A DNA stretch of 42,825 nucleotides from Acetofilamentum sp. (lineage in GTDB: Bacteria; Bacteroidota; Bacteroidia; Bacteroidales; DYOH01). Numbering within the stretch: position 1 is the first letter of the stretch; the number at the start of each line of letters is the position of its first letter. The notes under the pieces were generated by a model. It had not been told where the DNA came from, made no database searches, and saw nothing but the letters and a program-made list of their open reading frames with translations. A program made the translations under genes and the position numbers. The stretch covers positions 1 to 42,825 of the forward strand of contig DYOH01000025.1 in assembly GCA_020720625.1 (NCBI GenBank), given 5' to 3'. Below are positions 27,708-38,472 of this stretch, one piece after another.

Positions 27708-29597
27708 TTAATCGTAAAAACGCCAGGATACGCCAAATCGGAAATAGGTATCCGGAAGCGGATAGTCGGGCACTTGATAATAAAATTGACTAGTAACCAA
27801 ATAATTAAGGTTTATCACTTTAAAGAATATACGTGAACGTCTTAATTGGGCGTTTATAAAAAAATTAACCAAAGGTTCACCCCCAATTAAATCCCCCTTC
27901 TTTGCATAAAACATAGCGGTGGCTGGATAATAGTAAGGAGCAGCGTATTGATTCATCCAATAGGATTCAACCCCTATTTGATTTACCATTGATTTTGAAA
28001 TGGTTTTTCCTTCGTAATATATACTGGCATAGGCTATCATTTCGGGATACGAAAAATGAGTTGTATCGCTTAATTGCTGATAAGTAAATTTAGTTTTAAT
28101 TCTGAACATCCATATTTTTAGCAAGTTCTCCATCTGAACTCTACTATAATTCAATGTATCATTCAATTGTGCGGCAAGTGCATTTTCATTAAAATAGACA
28201 GGATTCAATATCATACCTTTTTCCAGAGAAACCAATAAATTTATTTTAGGTAAAGTAAGCTTAAGTATCCCATTTATTTGGGTTTCGTCCTTTGTTTCGT
28301 TCTCCCATATCACACGATTGCCATAATAGTTTTGCATCCAGTACGATGGCATTTTAACTTCATAATTAAATTCCCACCTAAGTCTAAGTGGAAATTTTTG
28401 CTGAAAAACAAAAAGTTCTCCTTCAGATTTTATAGCATAATCGCCATCTTTATAGCCCCCTTTATATGTTTCGTAATAGGCTTGCCAATTTAGCATTTTT
28501 CCTCGCGCGCTATATAATCCATAACGCGAGCGCTTATACACCTCGGTAGTCCCATTCTCCAAACGAACATACTCCTTAAAGTTATAATATTCACTTCTTT
28601 GCCACAAATACTCTCCAAAGGCTCCAATTTTTATTATTGGCAAAATTTCATCGCCGGTTCTAAATTTAACTCTTATGCTAATGTCTTGCTGAAAAATTGA
28701 ATCAAAAGACTCTTTTGCATCATAATAAGAAATACCTCCATACATCAACGAATCTGTGAGATTATCCCGATAAACCTTATATTGCTGATTTGAAGAGAAA
28801 TGTTGCCAAATACTAAATAATTCCTTTTTCACAATTCGCTCCACTATTGTATCTTTACCATCAATGCTTTCAATTATGTTTCTACGAAAATTGATTGGAA
28901 AAGTATATACTAAATTTTGATTGAATTGCTTTTGCCCTAGCAAATTACTTGCATCATCCATTTTCACAGGAATCTGATTTCCGATAATTTCTACAGAATC
29001 ATTTATTCCACCGTTTTCAAAGGCGGTAATTTTGTTAAAAAGAAAATGAGAGAATATCCTAAGGTTTTCTTTCTGATAATTTGTTGATGCATAAACAGAA
29101 CTACTTCGTGCATTCTGATAATTAAAGGCACCTTCGGCTATATTGAAACTTCCATATAAAGTTACATTCCAAAACTGATTAATATTACGACTGTGCATCA
29201 GGCGTATTAAATTCTCCTTCTCCCTGCGGGGGCCTGTAAACAAATACATGTGGGTATAGGGCTTTGTCGTATTCAAATATTGCACAGTACTGTCAGCAAT
29301 CCAATAATTCTCAACAGACCTATAAAACAAAAAATCCTTGAACAAATCAGGCCTAAAAATAGCAGTTGAGTAAGGCAGTCCCAAATTTCCTAAAAAAACG
29401 GATGAATAATCCTTTTCTAAAAAAGGATAATAATATTGAAAATTTGTAAGGGAAGTATCGTCAGGAAAAACATTGAAACCAAGATTTTCGAAATTCAGCT
29501 TATAAACATCTAATTTTGCAGGAACTATAGTATCTTGCCCAAAAACTCTTAAATGATAAGCAATTATAGCAAAAAGCACAAATATGATTTTCCTCAT
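27708..29597 (-). CDS. Putative porin of the PF14121 type
   Basis: This large outer-membrane beta-barrel of about 629 residues has a signal peptide (MRKIIFVLFAIIAYHLRVFGQ). Its family-like features are the early YYPFLEKDYSSVFLGNLG segment, RSVENYWIADSTVQYLNTTKPYT, the TGPRREKENLIRLMHSRNIN region, and a C-terminal strand RFGVSWRFYD ending close to an aromatic residue. This 'putative porin' group is widespread in Bacteroidota but its substrates are unknown. The Met at 29597 gives the better signal peptide than the Met at 29615. Confidence 0.78.
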   Translation of the reverse strand: MRKIIFVLFAIIAYHLRVFGQDTIVPAKLDVYKLNFENLGFNVFPDDTSLTNFQYYYPFLEKDYSSVFLGNLGLPYSTAIFRPDLFKDFLFYRSVENYWIADSTVQYLNTTKPYTHMYLFTGPRREKENLIRLMHSRNINQFWNVTLYGSFNIAEGAFNYQNARSSSVYASTNYQKENLRIFSHFLFNKITAFENGGINDSVEIIGNQIPVKMDDASNLLGQKQFNQNLVYTFPINFRRNIIESIDGKDTIVERIVKKELFSIWQHFSSNQQYKVYRDNLTDSLMYGGISYYDAKESFDSIFQQDISIRVKFRTGDEILPIIKIGAFGEYLWQRSEYYNFKEYVRLENGTTEVYKRSRYGLYSARGKMLNWQAYYETYKGGYKDGDYAIKSEGELFVFQQKFPLRLRWEFNYEVKMPSYWMQNYYGNRVIWENETKDETQINGILKLTLPKINLLVSLEKGMILNPVYFNENALAAQLNDTLNYSRVQMENLLKIWMFRIKTKFTYQQLSDTTHFSYPEMIAYASIYYEGKTISKSMVNQIGVESYWMNQYAAPYYYPATAMFYAKKGDLIGGEPLVNFFINAQLRRSRIFFKVINLNYLVTSQFYYQVPDYPLPDTYFRFGVSWRFYD

Positions 29598-29797
29598 TCC
29601 GTTTCTTATTATCAATTTTGATTTTTTTGACTTAAAATTTGATGCGCTAAAATGCTATTTCGTAAATAGACAAATATGGCTGCTACTAAATCAATTTTTT
29701 CAGTCTGCAAACTTAGTTCAAATCAAATGGAATTAAAAATTTAAAGCTTTAAATTAATTATACACACTGATTATGTTTTGTTCTTGGGCCACAAAAT

Positions 29798-30365: not shown

Positions 30366-31034
30366 TTACTTAATGCATAAATTTTTCAAAGCATTTTTAT
30401 CCCCATCAAAATAATTTAAATCAACAGAATGATCAATTCCCTTCACCTTACCTTTATCTGTATACTGCCAAATTGTCCAAGCCAAACCGTCCGCTAACTC
30501 AGGTGGTTTTTTGCCATAAGAAGCAATCCAAAGCGGATAACCCGGAAAATATCCCGACAAATAATCATCGTAAAAACTTCTACCGGTGTAAATAATTGGC
30601 TTTACTTTATATTTCTTCTCAGCTAAACGCAGCCAAATACGCACATTCTCTCTTATTTTTTCTTTCGAAGGCATTTTTTTTGCATGCTCCACATCCAAAA
30701 CCGGAGGCAAATCACCTTTTTTCAAATGTACATGTTTAGCAAAATTCTCGAATTGCTGCTCTGGAGAACTGTAAAAATTAAAAAAATGATAAGCTCCACG
30801 AACAATTCCGGCCTGTTCTATCAATTTCCAATTATACTCAAAATAGCGGTCGTGCCAATTTGTTCCCTCAGTGGCCTTAACTATGGCAAAACTAATACGG
30901 GTATCCCTAATCCCTCGCCAATCAACATCATCCTGATAATGAGAAACATCAATCCCTATAATATAGTCATTTGTGTTGTAATCGGAACACGAAACAACAA
31001 AAATCAAAGCAAAAAAAACAATAGAATATTTCAT
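30366..31034 (-). CDS. Glycoside hydrolase family 25 lysozyme, lipoprotein
   Basis: GH25 enzymes cut the beta-1,4 bond between MurNAc and GlcNAc. This 222-residue protein begins with a lipobox signal (MKYSIVFFALIFVVSC), so it is probably anchored in the envelope. The domain shows the family start IGIDVSHYQDDVDW, the FAIVKATEG strand, GAYHFFNF, the catalytic pair in PPVLDVEHAK (D and E), PIIYTGRSFYDDYL and TIWQYTDKG near the end. Length fits a single GH25 barrel without binding domains. It may serve wall turnover or attack on neighbours. Confidence 0.92.
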   Translation of the reverse strand: MKYSIVFFALIFVVSCSDYNTNDYIIGIDVSHYQDDVDWRGIRDTRISFAIVKATEGTNWHDRYFEYNWKLIEQAGIVRGAYHFFNFYSSPEQQFENFAKHVHLKKGDLPPVLDVEHAKKMPSKEKIRENVRIWLRLAEKKYKVKPIIYTGRSFYDDYLSGYFPGYPLWIASYGKKPPELADGLAWTIWQYTDKGKVKGIDHSVDLNYFDGDKNALKNLCIK

Positions 31035-31297: not shown

Positions 31298-32686
31298 ATG
31301 AATATTTCCAGAGAAAGTATTGGCGAACTAAACGACCTTATCAAAATTAAGTTAGAAGAAAGCGATTATGCTCAAAAAATTGAGATGGCGCTAAAAGAAT
31401 ATCGCAAAAAAGCAAATATTCCAGGTTTTCGTCCCGGTCATGTTCCCATGGGATACATCGTTAAAGCCTATGGTAGAGCTGCCAAAGCTGATGAAATTAA
31501 TAAACTCCTTAACGATTCACTTTTCCAGTATTTAAAAGAAAATGAGTTAAAATATCTCGGAGAACCAATGCCTTATGATATGGAAAACGACAATATTGTT
31601 GACTTTGAAAACGATAAAGAATTTGAATTTGCCTTTGAAATTGGTCGCATTCCTGAAATTAATTTTGAAGTAAACAAAGAATTAGAAGTTTATTTATACA
31701 AGGTAGAGCCCGAAGAAAAATACGTACTTTCGACCATCGAGAATAACCAAAAAAGATTTTCTAGGGAAACTGATGTTGATGCGGTCGAAGAAAACGATGA
31801 TATGATAAGAGTTAAGCTTGAGCAAGTTGACAACAGCGAACAAGTAATAGCCGACGGAATTATTGCCGAAGATGTACTGATTGCAATTAACATGATTAAA
31901 AACGAAGAACTTAAATCAATATTCAATGGTCTTAAAACTAACGAATCTTTGATTTTTAATCCTATGCAAGCTTTCCAAAACGAAACAGAGGTTGCTGCCA
32001 TTTTAAAAATTGAAAAAGATAATATTGAAGGATTAAATGCCAGCTATAAAACTACTATTAATCAAATTTTCAGATATTTACCATCTGAATTAGACATTGA
32101 GTTCTACAAAAAACTTTTTGGATCTGAGACAACGGTTAATTCAGAAGAAGACTTAAAAACTGAAATTAAAAAACGCATTGCCGAAGAATTCGAAAATGAA
32201 ACTTATTATAGATTCTCTATAGATGCTAAAGAAATAATTTCTAATAAATTAAATTTAGCACTGCCTGATACTTTCTTAAAAAAATGGTTGATAGCATCTT
32301 CCAAAGAAAATCAGAAATTTGATGATGATACTTTTGAAAAAGAATACACAACATTTGCCGAAGACCTAAAATGGCAATTGATATCCGCTAATATTTTCAA
32401 AAAAAATAATTTGCATGTTACAGAAAAGGATATTCACGACGCTGCAGAAGAATTGGTTATTAGCGACTTAAAGCGTTATGGCATTCCGGCTGAATCTATT
32501 AGCCACGACTTAGCACATCAGTTTGTGCATAGCATGCTCGACAAGAAAGAAGATAGAGAAAGGGCACAGAGATTTGCTGAGCATAACGTGCTTTCCGAAT
32601 TCTTAAAAAATAATGTTACTTGTATCGAAAAAACGGTGAGCATTGATGAGTTCAATGAACTAGTAAAATCTGATGATAAAGAATAA
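31298..32686 (+). CDS. tig: Trigger factor (ribosome-associated chaperone)
   Basis: This 462-residue protein has the ribosome-binding N-terminal domain, with the signature IPGFRPGHVPMGYIVKAYG corresponding to the GFRxGKxP loop that docks on L23. A short middle part stands where the FKBP-type PPIase domain lies, followed by a long helical C-terminal chaperone domain. As in other Bacteroidota, the middle domain is divergent and I cannot see a confident FKBP active site. It stands alone, between tRNA-Leu and a bidirectional terminator. Confidence 0.92.
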   Translation: MNISRESIGELNDLIKIKLEESDYAQKIEMALKEYRKKANIPGFRPGHVPMGYIVKAYGRAAKADEINKLLNDSLFQYLKENELKYLGEPMPYDMENDNIVDFENDKEFEFAFEIGRIPEINFEVNKELEVYLYKVEPEEKYVLSTIENNQKRFSRETDVDAVEENDDMIRVKLEQVDNSEQVIADGIIAEDVLIAINMIKNEELKSIFNGLKTNESLIFNPMQAFQNETEVAAILKIEKDNIEGLNASYKTTINQIFRYLPSELDIEFYKKLFGSETTVNSEEDLKTEIKKRIAEEFENETYYRFSIDAKEIISNKLNLALPDTFLKKWLIASSKENQKFDDDTFEKEYTTFAEDLKWQLISANIFKKNNLHVTEKDIHDAAEELVISDLKRYGIPAESISHDLAHQFVHSMLDKKEDRERAQRFAEHNVLSEFLKNNVTCIEKTVSIDEFNELVKSDDKE

Positions 32687-33654: not shown

Positions 33655-34227
33655 TTATTCTATCATCTCTCCCTCTGATAGCTTAGCATTTGGAGGGTTT
33701 GAACCATAAAGTTCATTCTTGATGTAATAAGCTATTGCCTCTATTTTATCATCACTTAATTGATCAGAGTACGGAATCATGCCTTTAGTAGGAAATCCAA
33801 ATTTTATTGATTTTACAATATCGGCTTCGCCATTTCCATGTAACCAATATTTATCTGTAAGATTTGGGCCAACTGCGTTTCCTTCGCCTAAGCTTCCATG
33901 GCAAGCACTGCAAGCCTTCTGAACATAAAGCTCTTTCCCGAGTGCAATTTTTTCATCAGCTTTTAATACAACTGAGGGTGTTTTCTGAGCTTCGGCATTT
34001 CTTTGTGCCAAAAGAGCATCTGCTTCGGCCACCTCGTTTACATATTCCTGTTCCTGCAAATCGCCTTGCTTAAATACGTGGTAATGTACCATATACAGAG
34101 CCGACCAGAATATGGTGAGATATAGAACCCACATAATCCAAGGTGGAGGTGGATTATCTAACTCACGGATTCCATCAAAATCATGTCCTTCTACAAAATT
34201 GGTGTCTTTTATTTCATTTTCTGCCAT
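33655..34227 (-). CDS. ccoP: cbb3 oxidase cytochrome c subunit CcoP, single-heme form
   Basis: This subunit passes electrons from soluble donors to the cbb3 oxidase. The 190-residue protein has an N-terminal cytosolic segment with NPPPPWIMWVLYLTIF, a typical CcoP start, and one membrane helix. A single periplasmic cytochrome c domain follows with CSACH at 106-110 and an axial Met in GMIPYSDQL. Canonical CcoP carries two heme c groups; one is missing here. A closely similar heme module is fused to the end of the CcoNO protein, so the second heme may have moved there. It is the last gene of the operon. Confidence 0.88.
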   Translation of the reverse strand: MAENEIKDTNFVEGHDFDGIRELDNPPPPWIMWVLYLTIFWSALYMVHYHVFKQGDLQEQEYVNEVAEADALLAQRNAEAQKTPSVVLKADEKIALGKELYVQKACSACHGSLGEGNAVGPNLTDKYWLHGNGEADIVKSIKFGFPTKGMIPYSDQLSDDKIEAIAYYIKNELYGSNPPNAKLSEGEMIE

Positions 34228-34239
34228 AGCAAATGGTAT

Positions 34240-34428
34240 TTAAATGTTTATTTTATCCGTATCGTTACCTTCTAAAGGCATATTGCCATATTCTTTCATT
34301 AATCCTGGATTCTCTCGAATAACAATGTACACAATGCCGAGAAATAAAGTAAGGAAGAGAATCAAGGTAATGATTGAAAAATTTTCTATTCCTGAAATTT
34401 GTTCAAAATAATGTGAAACCAGTTTCAT
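34240..34428 (-). CDS. ccoQ: CcoQ-like small membrane subunit of cbb3 oxidase
   Basis: This 62-residue protein has one membrane helix (FSIITLILFLTLFLGIVYIVI) and a polar C-terminal tail. It lies between the CcoNO and CcoP genes, exactly where CcoQ is found. CcoQ proteins are small and poorly conserved, and are thought to stabilise the complex. The call rests on size, topology and position. Confidence 0.75.
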   Translation of the reverse strand: MKLVSHYFEQISGIENFSIITLILFLTLFLGIVYIVIRENPGLMKEYGNMPLEGNDTDKINI

Positions 34429-34434
34429 AGTATA

Positions 34435-36921
34435 TTAATTTTCGGTTAGTTCTTTTCCTTGTGGCGCTTTTGCATTGGCAGGATTTGTTCCCTGCAAACT
34501 TAAAACAAAGCTGCTCACTTGAATAATTTGCTTATCGCTAATTAGGCCTTTATATGAAAGCATGCCATTTTGCGGAATTCCAACATATACAGATTTATAC
34601 ACATCTGCAAAGCCTCCGCCGTGCAGCCAAAATTTGTCTGTAAGATTTGGGCCAATGGCATTTCCTTCACCACTTAATCCATGGCAAGCAGCACAATTCT
34701 TGGAAAATACTTCTTTAGCTTCTGCCATGTCCTGACTTGTATTCAAAGCTTGCGGAATTACAAGTTCTTCCTGTGCTTTAATTTCTGTTTCATTGCTTTC
34801 ATATAAATCTTTTCCTAAACGATGCAAATAAGCAATTAAAGCCACAATATGTTTTGTAGGCAGGGTTTCGATACCGGCAATTTTTAAATCATCTACAATT
34901 TTATTTGCCTGCAACATAAAATTAAAATTTGCATTGCGATACTCTTCATCAGAATAAGGAACTCCTAATCTGGTCATGGCTTTAACTTTGGCAGCAGTCA
35001 TAGTAGTATCAATATCTTTTTCGAGCAACCATGGATAGGCCGGCATAACAGATTCTTCGTTTACATCCTTTGGCTGGTTCATGTGCTTGAAATGCCATGC
35101 TGCCGATTTATACATTTTCCCGCCCACAACTCCAGTTCTGGCTAAATCTGGTCCGGTTCTTCTTGAGCCCCATAAGAAGGGGTGATCATAAACAAATTCG
35201 CCTGATTTGGAATAATCGCCATAACGTTCTGTTTCAGAACGGAATGGTCGAACCTGCTGGGAATGGCAGTTATTACATCCTTCGGCAATATAAACATCCC
35301 TACCTTGCAGTTCAAGCGGGGTGTATGGTTTTACACTTTCTATTGTTGGTACATTAGATTTTATTGCAATAAGTGGAACAATTTCGAGTAATCCACCAAT
35401 AAGTACGGCAAGGCCTGTAAGTACATAAAACTCAACAGGTCTTCTTTCCAGCCATGAGTGAGCTCTCTCGCCACTCTGACGTTTGGCATCCATCTTCTCT
35501 AATGCTGGTGCAGATGATTCTTCGTTGTTGACGATATAGCCGACTTGAATGGTTTTAATAAGATTGTAGAGCATTATCAAAGCACCTACTAAATATAATG
35601 TACCACCAACGGCACGAGTAATATACATAGGAATAATTTCTGTAACGGTTTCCATGAAATTTGGATAGGCAAGAAAACCATCCTGATTAAACTCTTTCCA
35701 CATGAGAGTTTGAGTAAAGGCTCCCCAATACAATGGAACAGCATAAAGTAGAATACCTAAAGTACCGATCCAAAAATGGAAATTTGCCAGTTTATTGGAA
35801 TACAAATTGGTATTAAAAATCTTTGGTACAAGCCAATAAAGCATACCGAAAGTTAAGAATCCGTTCCATCCGAGTGCTCCAATATGCACATGTGCAATAA
35901 TCCAATCGGTAAAATGCCCCAAAGCATTTACAGCTTTAATAGAAAGCATAGGGCCTTCGAGAGTAGACATACCATAAGCAGTAACGGCAACAGCCATAAA
36001 TTTGAGAATTGCATCTTCCCTTACTTTATCCCATACTCCCCGCAAGGTAAGTAAACCATTAAGCATACCTCCCCAAGAAGGTGCAATTAGCATAATAGAA
36101 AAAACTACACCTAAAGACTGTGCCCAATCTGGCAGTGCATTATATAATAAATGGTGAGGCCCGGCCCATATATAAATAAAAATCAGTGTCCAAAAGTGAA
36201 TGATTGACAATTTATAGCTATAAACCGGCCTGTTTGCGGCCTTTGGCAAAAAATAGTACATTACCCCAAGATAGGGAGTTGTAAGATAAAATGCCACAGC
36301 GTTATGACCATACCACCATTGAACCAGAGCGTCTTGCACACCGGCGAACACAGAATAACTTTTCAAAAAAGAGACAGGAAGTTCGAGTGAGTTAACCACA
36401 TGCAGCAATGCAACGGCAATAAATGAAGCAATGTAAAACCAAATTGCCACATATATATGTTTCACTCTTCTGCGGGCAATTGTACCAAACATGTTCCAAC
36501 CAAAACCAATCCAAACTATGGCAATCAGGATATCTATTGGCCATTCGAGTTCGGCGTATTCTTTACTGGTTGAAATACCCATTGCAAGTGAAACAGCTGC
36601 CAAAGCAATTATCAATTGCCAGCCCCACATATTAATTTTAGAAAGAAAATCGCTATACATGCGGGTTTTAAGTAATCTCTGCATTGAGTAATAAGCACCT
36701 GCAAAAATTCCGTTTCCAACAAAAGCAAAAATGGCGGCATTTGTATGCACCGGTCTTAGTCGTCCGAATGTAATATACTCAATTCCAAAATTCAAAGCCG
36801 GGAAAGCAAGCTCAAGAGCAATATACAGTCCGACAATAAATGCAACAATTCCCCAGAAAATTGTAGCATAAACAAATTGTTTTACGATCTTATTATCGTA
36901 ATAAAATGTTTGAACTTCCAT
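34435..36921 (-). CDS. ccoNO: cbb3 oxidase fusion: CcoN + CcoO + extra cytochrome c domain
   Basis: This 828-residue protein joins the catalytic heme-copper subunit CcoN (about 1-480) and the mono-heme CcoO (about 490-710). A further cytochrome c domain follows (about 725-815). CcoN shows heme and copper ligands in VHTNAAIFAFVGNG, YGHNAVAFY, AGPHHLLYN and HVHIGALGWNG. The CcoO heme site is CNNCH at 549-553 and the third-domain site is CAACH at 743-747. The third domain matches CcoP closely (GEGNAIGPNLTDKFWLHG against GEGNAVGPNLTDKYWLHG). CcoNO fusions are known in Bacteroidota; the extra heme domain makes this a larger, triple fusion. The enzyme reduces oxygen with high affinity. Confidence 0.93.
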   Translation of the reverse strand: MEVQTFYYDNKIVKQFVYATIFWGIVAFIVGLYIALELAFPALNFGIEYITFGRLRPVHTNAAIFAFVGNGIFAGAYYSMQRLLKTRMYSDFLSKINMWGWQLIIALAAVSLAMGISTSKEYAELEWPIDILIAIVWIGFGWNMFGTIARRRVKHIYVAIWFYIASFIAVALLHVVNSLELPVSFLKSYSVFAGVQDALVQWWYGHNAVAFYLTTPYLGVMYYFLPKAANRPVYSYKLSIIHFWTLIFIYIWAGPHHLLYNALPDWAQSLGVVFSIMLIAPSWGGMLNGLLTLRGVWDKVREDAILKFMAVAVTAYGMSTLEGPMLSIKAVNALGHFTDWIIAHVHIGALGWNGFLTFGMLYWLVPKIFNTNLYSNKLANFHFWIGTLGILLYAVPLYWGAFTQTLMWKEFNQDGFLAYPNFMETVTEIIPMYITRAVGGTLYLVGALIMLYNLIKTIQVGYIVNNEESSAPALEKMDAKRQSGERAHSWLERRPVEFYVLTGLAVLIGGLLEIVPLIAIKSNVPTIESVKPYTPLELQGRDVYIAEGCNNCHSQQVRPFRSETERYGDYSKSGEFVYDHPFLWGSRRTGPDLARTGVVGGKMYKSAAWHFKHMNQPKDVNEESVMPAYPWLLEKDIDTTMTAAKVKAMTRLGVPYSDEEYRNANFNFMLQANKIVDDLKIAGIETLPTKHIVALIAYLHRLGKDLYESNETEIKAQEELVIPQALNTSQDMAEAKEVFSKNCAACHGLSGEGNAIGPNLTDKFWLHGGGFADVYKSVYVGIPQNGMLSYKGLISDKQIIQVSSFVLSLQGTNPANAKAPQGKELTEN

Positions 36922-36932
36922 AAAATATTGAT

Positions 36933-37109
36933 TTATTTATTTTTCGATTTGTTTTCTTTTTTGGGCAGATCGTTATCTTCAAATAATATCCGCACAGATG
37001 GTGTATAATCATCATCAAACTGGCCATTTTTTACAGATAATAAGAAAGCGACAAGAAATCCCATCGCAATAATAAGGCTTATTCCAATCAAAATAAATAA
37101 TGCTGACAT
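36933..37109 (-). CDS. ccoS: cbb3 oxidase maturation protein CcoS
   Basis: This 58-residue protein begins MSALFILIGISLIIAMGF, has one membrane helix, and continues VKNGQFDDDYTPSVRILF, the recognisable CcoS pattern (a membrane helix, then GQFDD and a Pro residue). CcoS is needed for cofactor insertion into CcoN. It sits 11 nt upstream of the CcoNO gene, as first gene of the operon. The ccoG, ccoH and ccoI genes that often accompany it lie outside the operon as seen here. Confidence 0.85.
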   Translation of the reverse strand: MSALFILIGISLIIAMGFLVAFLLSVKNGQFDDDYTPSVRILFEDNDLPKKENKSKNK

Positions 37110-37142: not shown

Positions 37143-37320
37143 AATGAATATTTTTTTTAAATACTATTTAAGCATATTTTTATCCTTAATTTAAAATCAT
37201 TTTAAACAAGAATGTATTTAAACTGCGCCTGATTATTAAAAAAACCTAATTCCTGACTATTCTAAATGAAAATCGAATTATTTGAAGCAAAATAATTTTA
37301 CTATTATTTATGGAAACAAT

Positions 37321-37328
37321 TATTTTTG
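37321..37328 (+). promoter_or_regulatory. -7 promoter element of nspC (TATTTTTG)
   Basis: This TAnnTTTG match predicts transcription from about 37335. That excludes the upstream in-frame ATG at 37282 and supports the start at 37351. Confidence 0.45.
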
Positions 37329-37350
37329 CGTCAAACAAAAAAAAGACAAA

Positions 37351-38472
37351 ATGAATATCATAGTTTCCCCAAGTTTTGTATTAGAAGAAAAATTGCTTAA
37401 AAGAAATCTGGACTTAATTGGATATGTAGCTCATAAAGCCGAAATTGAAATTATTATGGCGCTAAAGGCATTTGGTATGTGGAAAATATTTCCCTTGATT
37501 GGAAAACATGTAAATGGTGCATCGGCAAGCTCATTGAATGAAGCCAAACTAATTTTTGAAGAAATGGGTGTTTGGGCGCATACATATTCTCCAGCCTTTA
37601 AAACAAATGAATTTGATGAAATTTTAGACTATTCAAATCACATTATCTTTAATTCGTTTAATCAATTTCATCAGTTTAAGGATAAAGTAAAAAGCCGGCA
37701 AAAAGAAATTGGCATTAGAATAAATCCGGAGTATTCGCCTGTAAGCACATCGCTATATAATGCCTGTACACCAGGCAGCCGGTTTGGAGTTTCGGTAGAT
37801 CAATTTCCAGAGCAACTACCGGTGGAGATAGATGGATTTCATTTTCACGCCTTATGCGAATCTGATAGTTATGCACTTGCAGATGTTTTAGAAGTTATCG
37901 AAGAAAAATTTGGGAGATACTTTAAAAAAATCAAATGGCTAAATTTGGGTGGTGGCCATTTAATGACAAGAAAAGACTATGATATTGAGCACCTTATAAG
38001 AACATTAAGCGATTTTCGAAAAAAACATCAAATAAAGATTATTCTTGAACCAGGGAGCGCATTTACCTGGCAAACCGGATTTCTGCAATCTACCATTATC
38101 GATATTGTAGAAAACAAAAACATAAAAACGGCCATTTTAGATGTGTCGTTTACCGCCCACATGCCCGATTGCTTAGAAATGCCCTATAAACCTGAAATAA
38201 GGGGCGCTAAGGAACCGAATTATTCGCTGCCAACCTACAGAATGGGCGGAAATAGTTGTTTGAGTGGAGATTTTATAGGAGATTGGTCGTTTGAAAAAGA
38301 ATTAAAAATTGGTGATACAATCATTTTTGAAGATATGATACATTATACCATGGTAAAAACAACCACATTTAATGGGGTGCAGCATCCAACTATAGGTATA
38401 TTGAAAGAAAACGGAGTTTTTGAAGTTTTTAAAACTTTTGTGCACGAGGATTATAAAAACAGGTTATCGTAA
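37351..38472 (+). CDS. nspC: Carboxynorspermidine/carboxyspermidine decarboxylase
   Basis: This PLP enzyme of the alanine-racemase fold makes norspermidine or spermidine from the carboxylated precursor, in the pathway that does not use decarboxylated SAM. The 373-residue protein has the PLP-binding lysine in EIIMALKAFGMW (K39) and the family block HVNGASASSLNEAKLIFEE. It also shows HFHALCESDSYALADVL, WLNLGGGH and the C-terminal GNSCLSGDFIGDW. I chose the Met at 37351 because family members start near IVSPSFVL. The partner carboxynorspermidine synthase is not in the window. It ends in a strong shared terminator. Confidence 0.93.
   Translation: MNIIVSPSFVLEEKLLKRNLDLIGYVAHKAEIEIIMALKAFGMWKIFPLIGKHVNGASASSLNEAKLIFEEMGVWAHTYSPAFKTNEFDEILDYSNHIIFNSFNQFHQFKDKVKSRQKEIGIRINPEYSPVSTSLYNACTPGSRFGVSVDQFPEQLPVEIDGFHFHALCESDSYALADVLEVIEEKFGRYFKKIKWLNLGGGHLMTRKDYDIEHLIRTLSDFRKKHQIKIILEPGSAFTWQTGFLQSTIIDIVENKNIKTAILDVSFTAHMPDCLEMPYKPEIRGAKEPNYSLPTYRMGGNSCLSGDFIGDWSFEKELKIGDTIIFEDMIHYTMVKTTTFNGVQHPTIGILKENGVFEVFKTFVHEDYKNRLS

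Follow-up and report, generated by a model that had tools for sequence, protein, structure and literature searches.

The 42,825-nucleotide contig DYOH01000025.1 of Acetofilamentum sp. (Bacteroidota, Bacteroidales; assembly GCA_020720625.1), hereafter referred to as the window, was found to carry on its minus strand, at 33655–37109, a cbb3 oxygen reductase operon consisting of ccoS, a triple-fusion gene designated ccoNO-c, a ccoQ-like gene, and ccoP. The ccoNO-c product, the main chain of an enzyme that respires oxygen when it is scarce, joins CcoN, CcoO, and a class I cytochrome c domain in a single chain of 828 residues. As the best explanation, held with moderate confidence, we propose that this enzyme is a Bacteroidota-form cbb3 oxidase in which a tethered, CcoP-like domain would provide a third heme c and serve as an additional point of electron entry or relay.

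The ccoNO-c gene (34435–36921) was shown to be one uninterrupted frame of 828 codons, in which the matches to COX1, FixO, and Cytochrom_C all exceeded the Pfam gathering scores. The catalytic CcoN domain occupies residues 11–442 (35596–36891; PF00115, 382.8 bits), the CcoO domain residues 488–705 (34807–35460; PF02433, 297.5 bits), and the fused cytochrome c domain residues 733–809 (34495–34725; PF00034 and PF13442, with a Cytochrom_C match of 46.5 bits). The two subunit assignments were further supported by NCBIfam, in which CcoN scored 654.9 bits against TIGR00780 (cut-off 583.15) and CcoO scored 237.2 bits against TIGR00781 (cut-off 200.65), and CcoN also matched solved CcoN chains strongly (588.9 bits against the PDB chain 3mk7_A). 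A CXXCH scan identified only two heme c sites in the whole protein, CNNCH of CcoO at residues 549–553 (35263–35277) and CAACH of the fused domain at residues 743–747 (34681–34695), the Met of the latter domain being residue 787. In an alignment of 33 sequences, C549, C552, and H553 of the CcoO site were invariant, as were H59, H206, Y250, H256, H257, E322, H344, and H346 of CcoN, which was also aligned to 3mk7_A; these residues we take to be the heme and CuB ligands, the cross-linked Tyr, and the active-site Glu. The ccoP gene (33655–34227) encodes a protein of 190 residues composed of FixP_N (PF14715, 62.1 bits) and one cytochrome c domain (PF13442, 48.7 bits), with a single CXXCH at residue 106 (33898–33912). 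An earlier note on this DNA had read both the triple fusion with heme sites at 549 and 743 and the one-heme CcoP directly from the letters, and these readings were confirmed. With CcoN above its cut-off, conserved active-site His, Tyr, and Glu residues, and one heme in CcoO, the enzyme can be classed from its sequence as a C-type (cbb3) oxygen reductase; its fused CcoNO and one-heme CcoP are those of the Bacteroidota form. When the 828-residue protein was searched against its own genome, no match besides CcoP was obtained for it at an E value of 0.001 or better.

To place this architecture, 295 genomes of the window's order were searched, among which 97 gave some match and 53 a near full-length CcoNO; 18 of these 53 had the long form, i.e., that with the added domain. 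The operon was then examined in 82 genomes, comprising every one of these 53 together with the 29 loci that scored highest in the class search (a non-random choice). Of the 82, 19 had the long form (807–864 residues, two CXXCH) and 63 the short form (703–763 residues, one CXXCH). The CcoNO-c architecture therefore recurs in 18 of the 81 other genomes examined, and the long forms are spread over 12 GTDB-family codes; the layout is not common to all Bacteroidota cbb3 oxidases, given the short form in 63 of the 82 genomes. Among the matches listed for a class sample (395 genomes, 360 with a match), the genome G431 held the sole long form besides the window's own, and among those listed for an overlapping phylum sample (395 genomes, 326 with a match) the window's own was the only one. 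In a scan of named genomes, the best 80 loci of at least 590 stretches included four long forms, two from Maribellus (sp. YY47, L123, and sp. CM-23, L124; Prolixibacteraceae, Marinilabiliales) and two from metagenome-assembled genomes (L121 and L122), the latter two probably not independent of G022 and G129, which had already been counted. Eight further loci of the phylum (L201–L208) were all short. The uninterrupted frame, together with the recurrence of the architecture in those 18 other genomes and the two Maribellus isolates, rules out an artefact of frame or assembly. Moreover, C743, C746, H747, and M787 were invariant in all 19 long forms. CcoNO-c is thus a genuine variant of a known enzyme, scattered patchily among lineages, and its added domain keeps its heme ligands. 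No description of a CcoN-CcoO-cytochrome c fusion was found in the titles and abstract openings listed by searches of a full-text literature collection that mostly leaves out subscription journals.

Canonical cbb3 oxidases carry one heme c in CcoO and two in CcoP. In the Bacteroidota sampled here, CcoP was recovered in 78 of the 82 genomes (in the other four, the stretch examined held no CcoP) and contained one CXXCH in all 78. Likewise, 88 further loci (80 named and eight of the phylum), which overlap in part with the 82-genome set, yielded 83 CcoP proteins, 80 with one CXXCH and three with two. All 60 short-form genomes whose CcoP was recovered had a one-heme CcoP in the absence of any fusion, and the one-heme state was thus the usual one whether the fusion was present or absent. 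Since the baseline is accordingly two hemes c, the fusion would add a third rather than relocate one, and the predicted heme-c count rises from two to three. The three two-CXXCH CcoP proteins, of 398–409 residues, have the extra motif either near the N-terminus (L140 and L161, at residues 41 and 44) or on the C-terminal side (L204, at residue 330), and they possibly represent further heme-domain additions to this oxidase.

A single-chain AlphaFold2 model of CcoNO-c built from 33 sequences (mean predicted local distance difference test score, pLDDT, 73.8) placed a linker between CcoO and the added domain at residues 705–718 (34768–34809), where pLDDT fell below 50 and where the alignment of the 19 long forms becomes gappy and variable from about residue 706 on. 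Residues 721–828 were modeled with ten-residue mean pLDDT values of 58–89. The best Foldseek match was 3mk7_A (template modeling score 0.92 of the target), and the CcoO chains 8smr_F and 3mk7_B were matched separately; the predicted model and the Foldseek matches are consistent with the folds of CcoN and CcoO and with flexible tethering of the added domain. In the mechanism we propose, the third heme-c domain would be held by this linker to the C-terminus of CcoO at the periplasmic face, would accept electrons from a membrane-anchored cytochrome c, and would pass them to the hemes of CcoO and CcoP, then to heme b, and finally to the b3-CuB site. A changed electron path through the oxidase, as suggested in the earlier note, is plausible. 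Both the direction of the electrons and a physical contact with the partner are what we infer from this arrangement. The CXXCH and the Met, invariant in all 19 copies despite a mean identity of 0.42, argue that the added domain has been kept as a cytochrome c.

To find a candidate electron donor, 55 cbb3 genomes were searched (those 53 from the window's order, together with G431 and G462, including all 19 long forms) with ActD as the marker of alternative complex III (ACIII), PF00033 as that of cytochrome b of the bc1 complex, and a close NrfD homologue as that of a trio of genes for an Fe-S protein, an NrfD protein, and a cytochrome c. Neither ActD nor PF00033 gave a match in the window's genome (G000, 98.5% complete). 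ACIII has been treated in Flavobacterium johnsoniae (PMC8552683). ActD was detected in 22 of the 55 genomes, 4 of 19 long and 18 of 36 short (Fisher p 0.047), and NosZ in none of the 19 long and 12 of the 36 short (Fisher p 0.0045); a link of the long form to either ACIII or NosZ was rejected as not significant once kinship was respected, in a corrected test that was without power. PF00033 was matched in 17 of the 55 genomes, in 12 of them within a frame of about 900 residues and in 3 of those 12 besides an ordinary one. These frames of about 900–920 residues, seen in G022, G231, G217, and nine others, match cytochrome b weakly (35–59 bits).

The trio lies in the window's genome at 20985–24392 of contig C139 (6986–10393 of locus L247) and comprises a twin-arginine translocation-type Fe-S protein resembling DsrO and QrcC, an NrfD protein resembling DsrP and QrcD that falls short of the cut-offs of the NCBIfam models it matches, and a one-heme cytochrome c of about 303 residues with an apparent C-terminal membrane anchor, as read by eye from homologues. 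It was present in each of the seven genomes in which the region was read (G000, G022, G231, G135, G217, G002, and G240); beyond these, NrfD alone was searched, with a homologue over 400 bits taken as the marker and the next group falling under 293. By this definition the marker occurred in 39 of the 55 genomes, 18 of 19 long and 21 of 36 short, in counts that ignore kinship. Either ActD or the NrfD marker was present in 54 genomes (both in 7, the marker only in 32, ActD only in 15), G012 alone having neither, so that the two markers are complementary in their distribution. In nine of the 39 genomes the marker was located within 5 kb upstream of ccoNO, seven of them long (G022, G231, G135, G217, G176, G073, and G267) and two short (G162 and G238); in G022 the order was Fe-S protein, NrfD, a 129-residue frame without a heme motif, cytochrome c, a CcoI-like ATPase, ccoS, and ccoNO-c. 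This distribution and the location near cbb3 genes make the trio a candidate menaquinol-cytochrome c oxidoreductase that might feed the oxidase, and in the window's genome, where no ACIII or bc1 marker was found, its cytochrome c would be the plausible donor. Among the NrfD-like complexes covered in the part of PMC8076601 accessible to us, none is named as a combination of Fe-S protein, NrfD, and monoheme cytochrome. A more far-reaching version, which we offer only tentatively, is that in Bacteroidota without ACIII or bc1 the fusion and the trio might be directly 'wired' into one path from menaquinol to oxygen, in which the tethered domain docks to the cytochrome anchored in the membrane; such a path, if real, would be a stand-in for complex III, coupled to cbb3, that is not known to have been described.

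Regarding its origin, the added domain is, by profile scores and trees, a CcoP-type cytochrome c akin to the CcoP domains of Bacteroidota, one of which was probably its source. Against a profile of Bacteroidota CcoP domains, the 19 fused domains scored 109.7 bits on average, compared with 53.8 and 56.2 bits for the first and second domains of canonical CcoP, and, of 15 further cytochrome domains from the cbb3 loci retrieved, 14 scored 5–48 bits. The fifteenth, at 108.9 bits, is a free-standing 157-residue cytochrome of G199 (L099, 6075–6548), possibly an unfused relative of the added domain. In a careful tree of 81 domains (19 fused, 48 of the 78 CcoP, and seven each of the two canonical domains), the fused and Bacteroidota CcoP domains were split together from both canonical domains with a support of 99/87, although the bootstrap had not settled; the grouping with unrelated cytochromes that the earlier note had considered was thus not observed. 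That note had called the fused and CcoP domains of the window near copies, and their similarity is indeed far above chance (alignment score 249; 500 shuffles gave a mean of 12.5, a standard deviation of 5.7, and a maximum of 42), but the two are only 47% identical over the whole domain. The stretch GEGNA-GPNLTDK-WLHG, over which the note had seen the near copies, proved to be a conserved family motif found in many of 38 aligned CcoP and fused domains and is therefore no sign of a recent copy. The proposal of the note that a CcoP domain had been moved or duplicated onto CcoO holds insofar as a CcoP-type domain does stand at the CcoO end; the part in which a heme moved and the total of three was kept is not supported. 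A recent local copy of the window's own ccoP was rejected, its CcoP domain ranking 29th of 78 for the window's fused domain; among the 18 fused domains whose own CcoP was recovered, the own domain ranked first only in G022.

Several observations weigh against the proposed explanation. The tree of the CcoNO body, built with the added domain cut off, required eight changes between long and short forms, at least four of them forced by starred branches of this quick tree, and the family codes f1, f32, f54, f119, and f180 each hold both forms, those of f32 and f119 being distant genes. The nearest relative of the window's CcoNO is the short form of its family-mate G002 (75% identity; 99% in the Shimodaira–Hasegawa-like approximate likelihood ratio test), which occurs together with the same trio; the stop codon of its ccoNO and the start of ccoQ overlap, so that no remnant of the added domain could lie between them. 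The added domain is dispensable in evolution, and since short forms also occur with the trio, it is not required for the trio. The link of the long form to the lack of ActD is not independent of kinship, the kinship-aware test comprising only five independent pairs with a median p of 0.5, and its link to the NrfD marker is probably not independent either. The structure model was poor around the CcoO heme (ten-residue means of 35–52 at residues 551–600). The fused domain has diverged more rapidly than the CcoP domain (lower identity in 134 of 153 pairs), as would suit weak constraint. Among long forms, CcoN showed a mean pairwise identity of 0.76, CcoO of 0.65, the CcoP domain of 0.53, and the fused domain of 0.42. 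Free domain trees, resting on about 101 columns and containing many weak forks, split the fused domains into three or four groups (three or four changes), and none of 200 bootstrap trees (0%) united them. Lastly, PDB searches with single sequences matched the fused domain of the window best to the second CcoP domain in five of six CcoP chains.

The interspersed long and short forms and the rapid evolution would suit a near-neutral ornament that binds heme, contributes little, and is freely gained and lost; nevertheless, the retention of both Cys residues, the His, and the Met in all 19 divergent copies and the occurrence of the long form across 12 family codes render this fairly unlikely. As for the number of gains, a single origin of the long form without loss was rejected on the CcoNO body (approximately unbiased [AU] test on the quick tree with 61 rows, L107 and most class rows dropped; p 3e-97). 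One origin of the fused domain itself was not rejected (p 0.475 with 97 rows and 0.268 with 81 rows), and 18 of the 19 fused domains scored closer to another fused domain than to any of the 78 CcoP domains. One gain followed by several losses is the simplest reading, and several gains from CcoP-type domains are possible.

The PDB searches bear on a different history, in which an ancestral CcoP with two hemes gave up its second heme domain to the CcoO end; in the same searches the window's CcoP matched the N-terminal part with the first domain. When domain models were built from seven proteobacterial FixP proteins encoded on plasmids, the fused domains leaned slightly to the second canonical domain (12 of 19, the first being better in 7; median difference 1.7 bits), although the Bacteroidota CcoP domains did so too (53 of 78). 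TIGR00782 aligned eight of the fused domains to its first domain and 11 to its second. Forcing the fused domains together with the second canonical domain cost 23.8 log units, which the AU test did not reject (p 0.08), and forcing them with the first cost 20.6 (p 0.10). Descent from the second canonical domain was nevertheless weakened by the domain models, the TIGR00782 positions, and the trees, and given the supported branch that unites the fused with the Bacteroidota CcoP domains to the exclusion of both canonical ones, as well as one-heme CcoP in the 60 short-form genomes, we regard such a transfer as very improbable. Alternatively, the added heme might be a side exit through which the oxidase supplies electrons to a different reductase in the periplasm, for which the tri-heme CcoP of Neisseria, proposed to feed NirK, is a precedent (PMC2924362). 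This appears quite unlikely, as NosZ, the one such reductase searched for, was not the partner in the sampled long-form genomes and no gene for a reductase of this kind occurs from ccoS to ccoP. By the preferred reading, a tethered third heme c for electron input, cbb3 oxidases of Bacteroidota would be modular where electrons enter, with several additions or removals of a heme domain on the catalytic chain and an otherwise unchanged operon. The added domain may show how these bacteria feed electrons to cbb3, and it points to a testable answer to the question of how the oxidase is fed in Bacteroidota without complex III.

Within the operon, ccoS (36933–37109, minus strand) encodes a cbb3 assembly protein of 58 residues (TIGR00847, 52 bits; cut-off 28.35). 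The small membrane protein of 62 residues encoded at 34240–34428 on the same strand was called ccoQ-like from its operon position and a weak match to FixQ (17.4 bits, under the gathering score of 29), so that this assignment is weak. Divergent from the operon lies nspC for carboxynorspermidine decarboxylase (37282–38472, plus strand; TIGR01047, 508 bits), and the other neighbors encode a trigger factor (31298–32686), a GH25 lysozyme-like protein (30366–31034), and a putative porin of the Porin_10 family (27708–29615). The CcoG marker PF11614 gave no match in the window's genome. A CcoI-type N-terminal domain (PF12156) was present on contig C139, which is also home to the trio.

In comparison with known systems, CcoNO-c most resembles the Bacteroidota CcoNO fusion described by NF011053 (PRK14485), since its residues 1–717 match positions 3–714 of the 716 in that model (1231.4 bits against 1080); the operon order ccoS-ccoNO-(ccoQ)-ccoP is also shared with the short forms, where the stretch covers it. 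Unlike PRK14485, which stops before the added cytochrome c domain, the chain here extends to 828 residues. For CcoNO itself, Melioribacter provides a published case (PMC5492636). NF011054 (PRK14486), by name and length a CcoO-cytochrome c fusion, matched residues 489–810; the score of 258.4 bits was nonetheless below its cut-off of 447, and at 294 positions the model is too short to hold CcoN. The difference from canonical CcoNOQP with a di-heme CcoP lies in the single CXXCH of CcoP, which scored 91.5 bits against TIGR00782 (cut-off 179.95). In caa3 oxidases, which are A-type enzymes with CuA, a cytochrome c is fused to the C-terminus of subunit II, whereas the oxidase here is C-type with heme c in CcoO. 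An extra cytochrome c on a cbb3 subunit is also seen in the CcoP-cytochrome cy chain of Rhodobacter capsulatus (6xkx and 6xkz, reportedly engineered bc1-cbb3 supercomplexes; PMC7876108); unlike CcoNO-c, that chain is engineered, has its cytochrome on CcoP, and is partnered with bc1. In the tri-heme CcoP of Neisseria, too, a cbb3 oxidase has acquired by fusion a further heme-c domain on a tether, one proposed to derive from cytochrome c5 (PMC2924362); there the domain is attached to a di-heme CcoP, whereas here it is CcoP-like, stands on CcoNO, and accompanies a one-heme CcoP.

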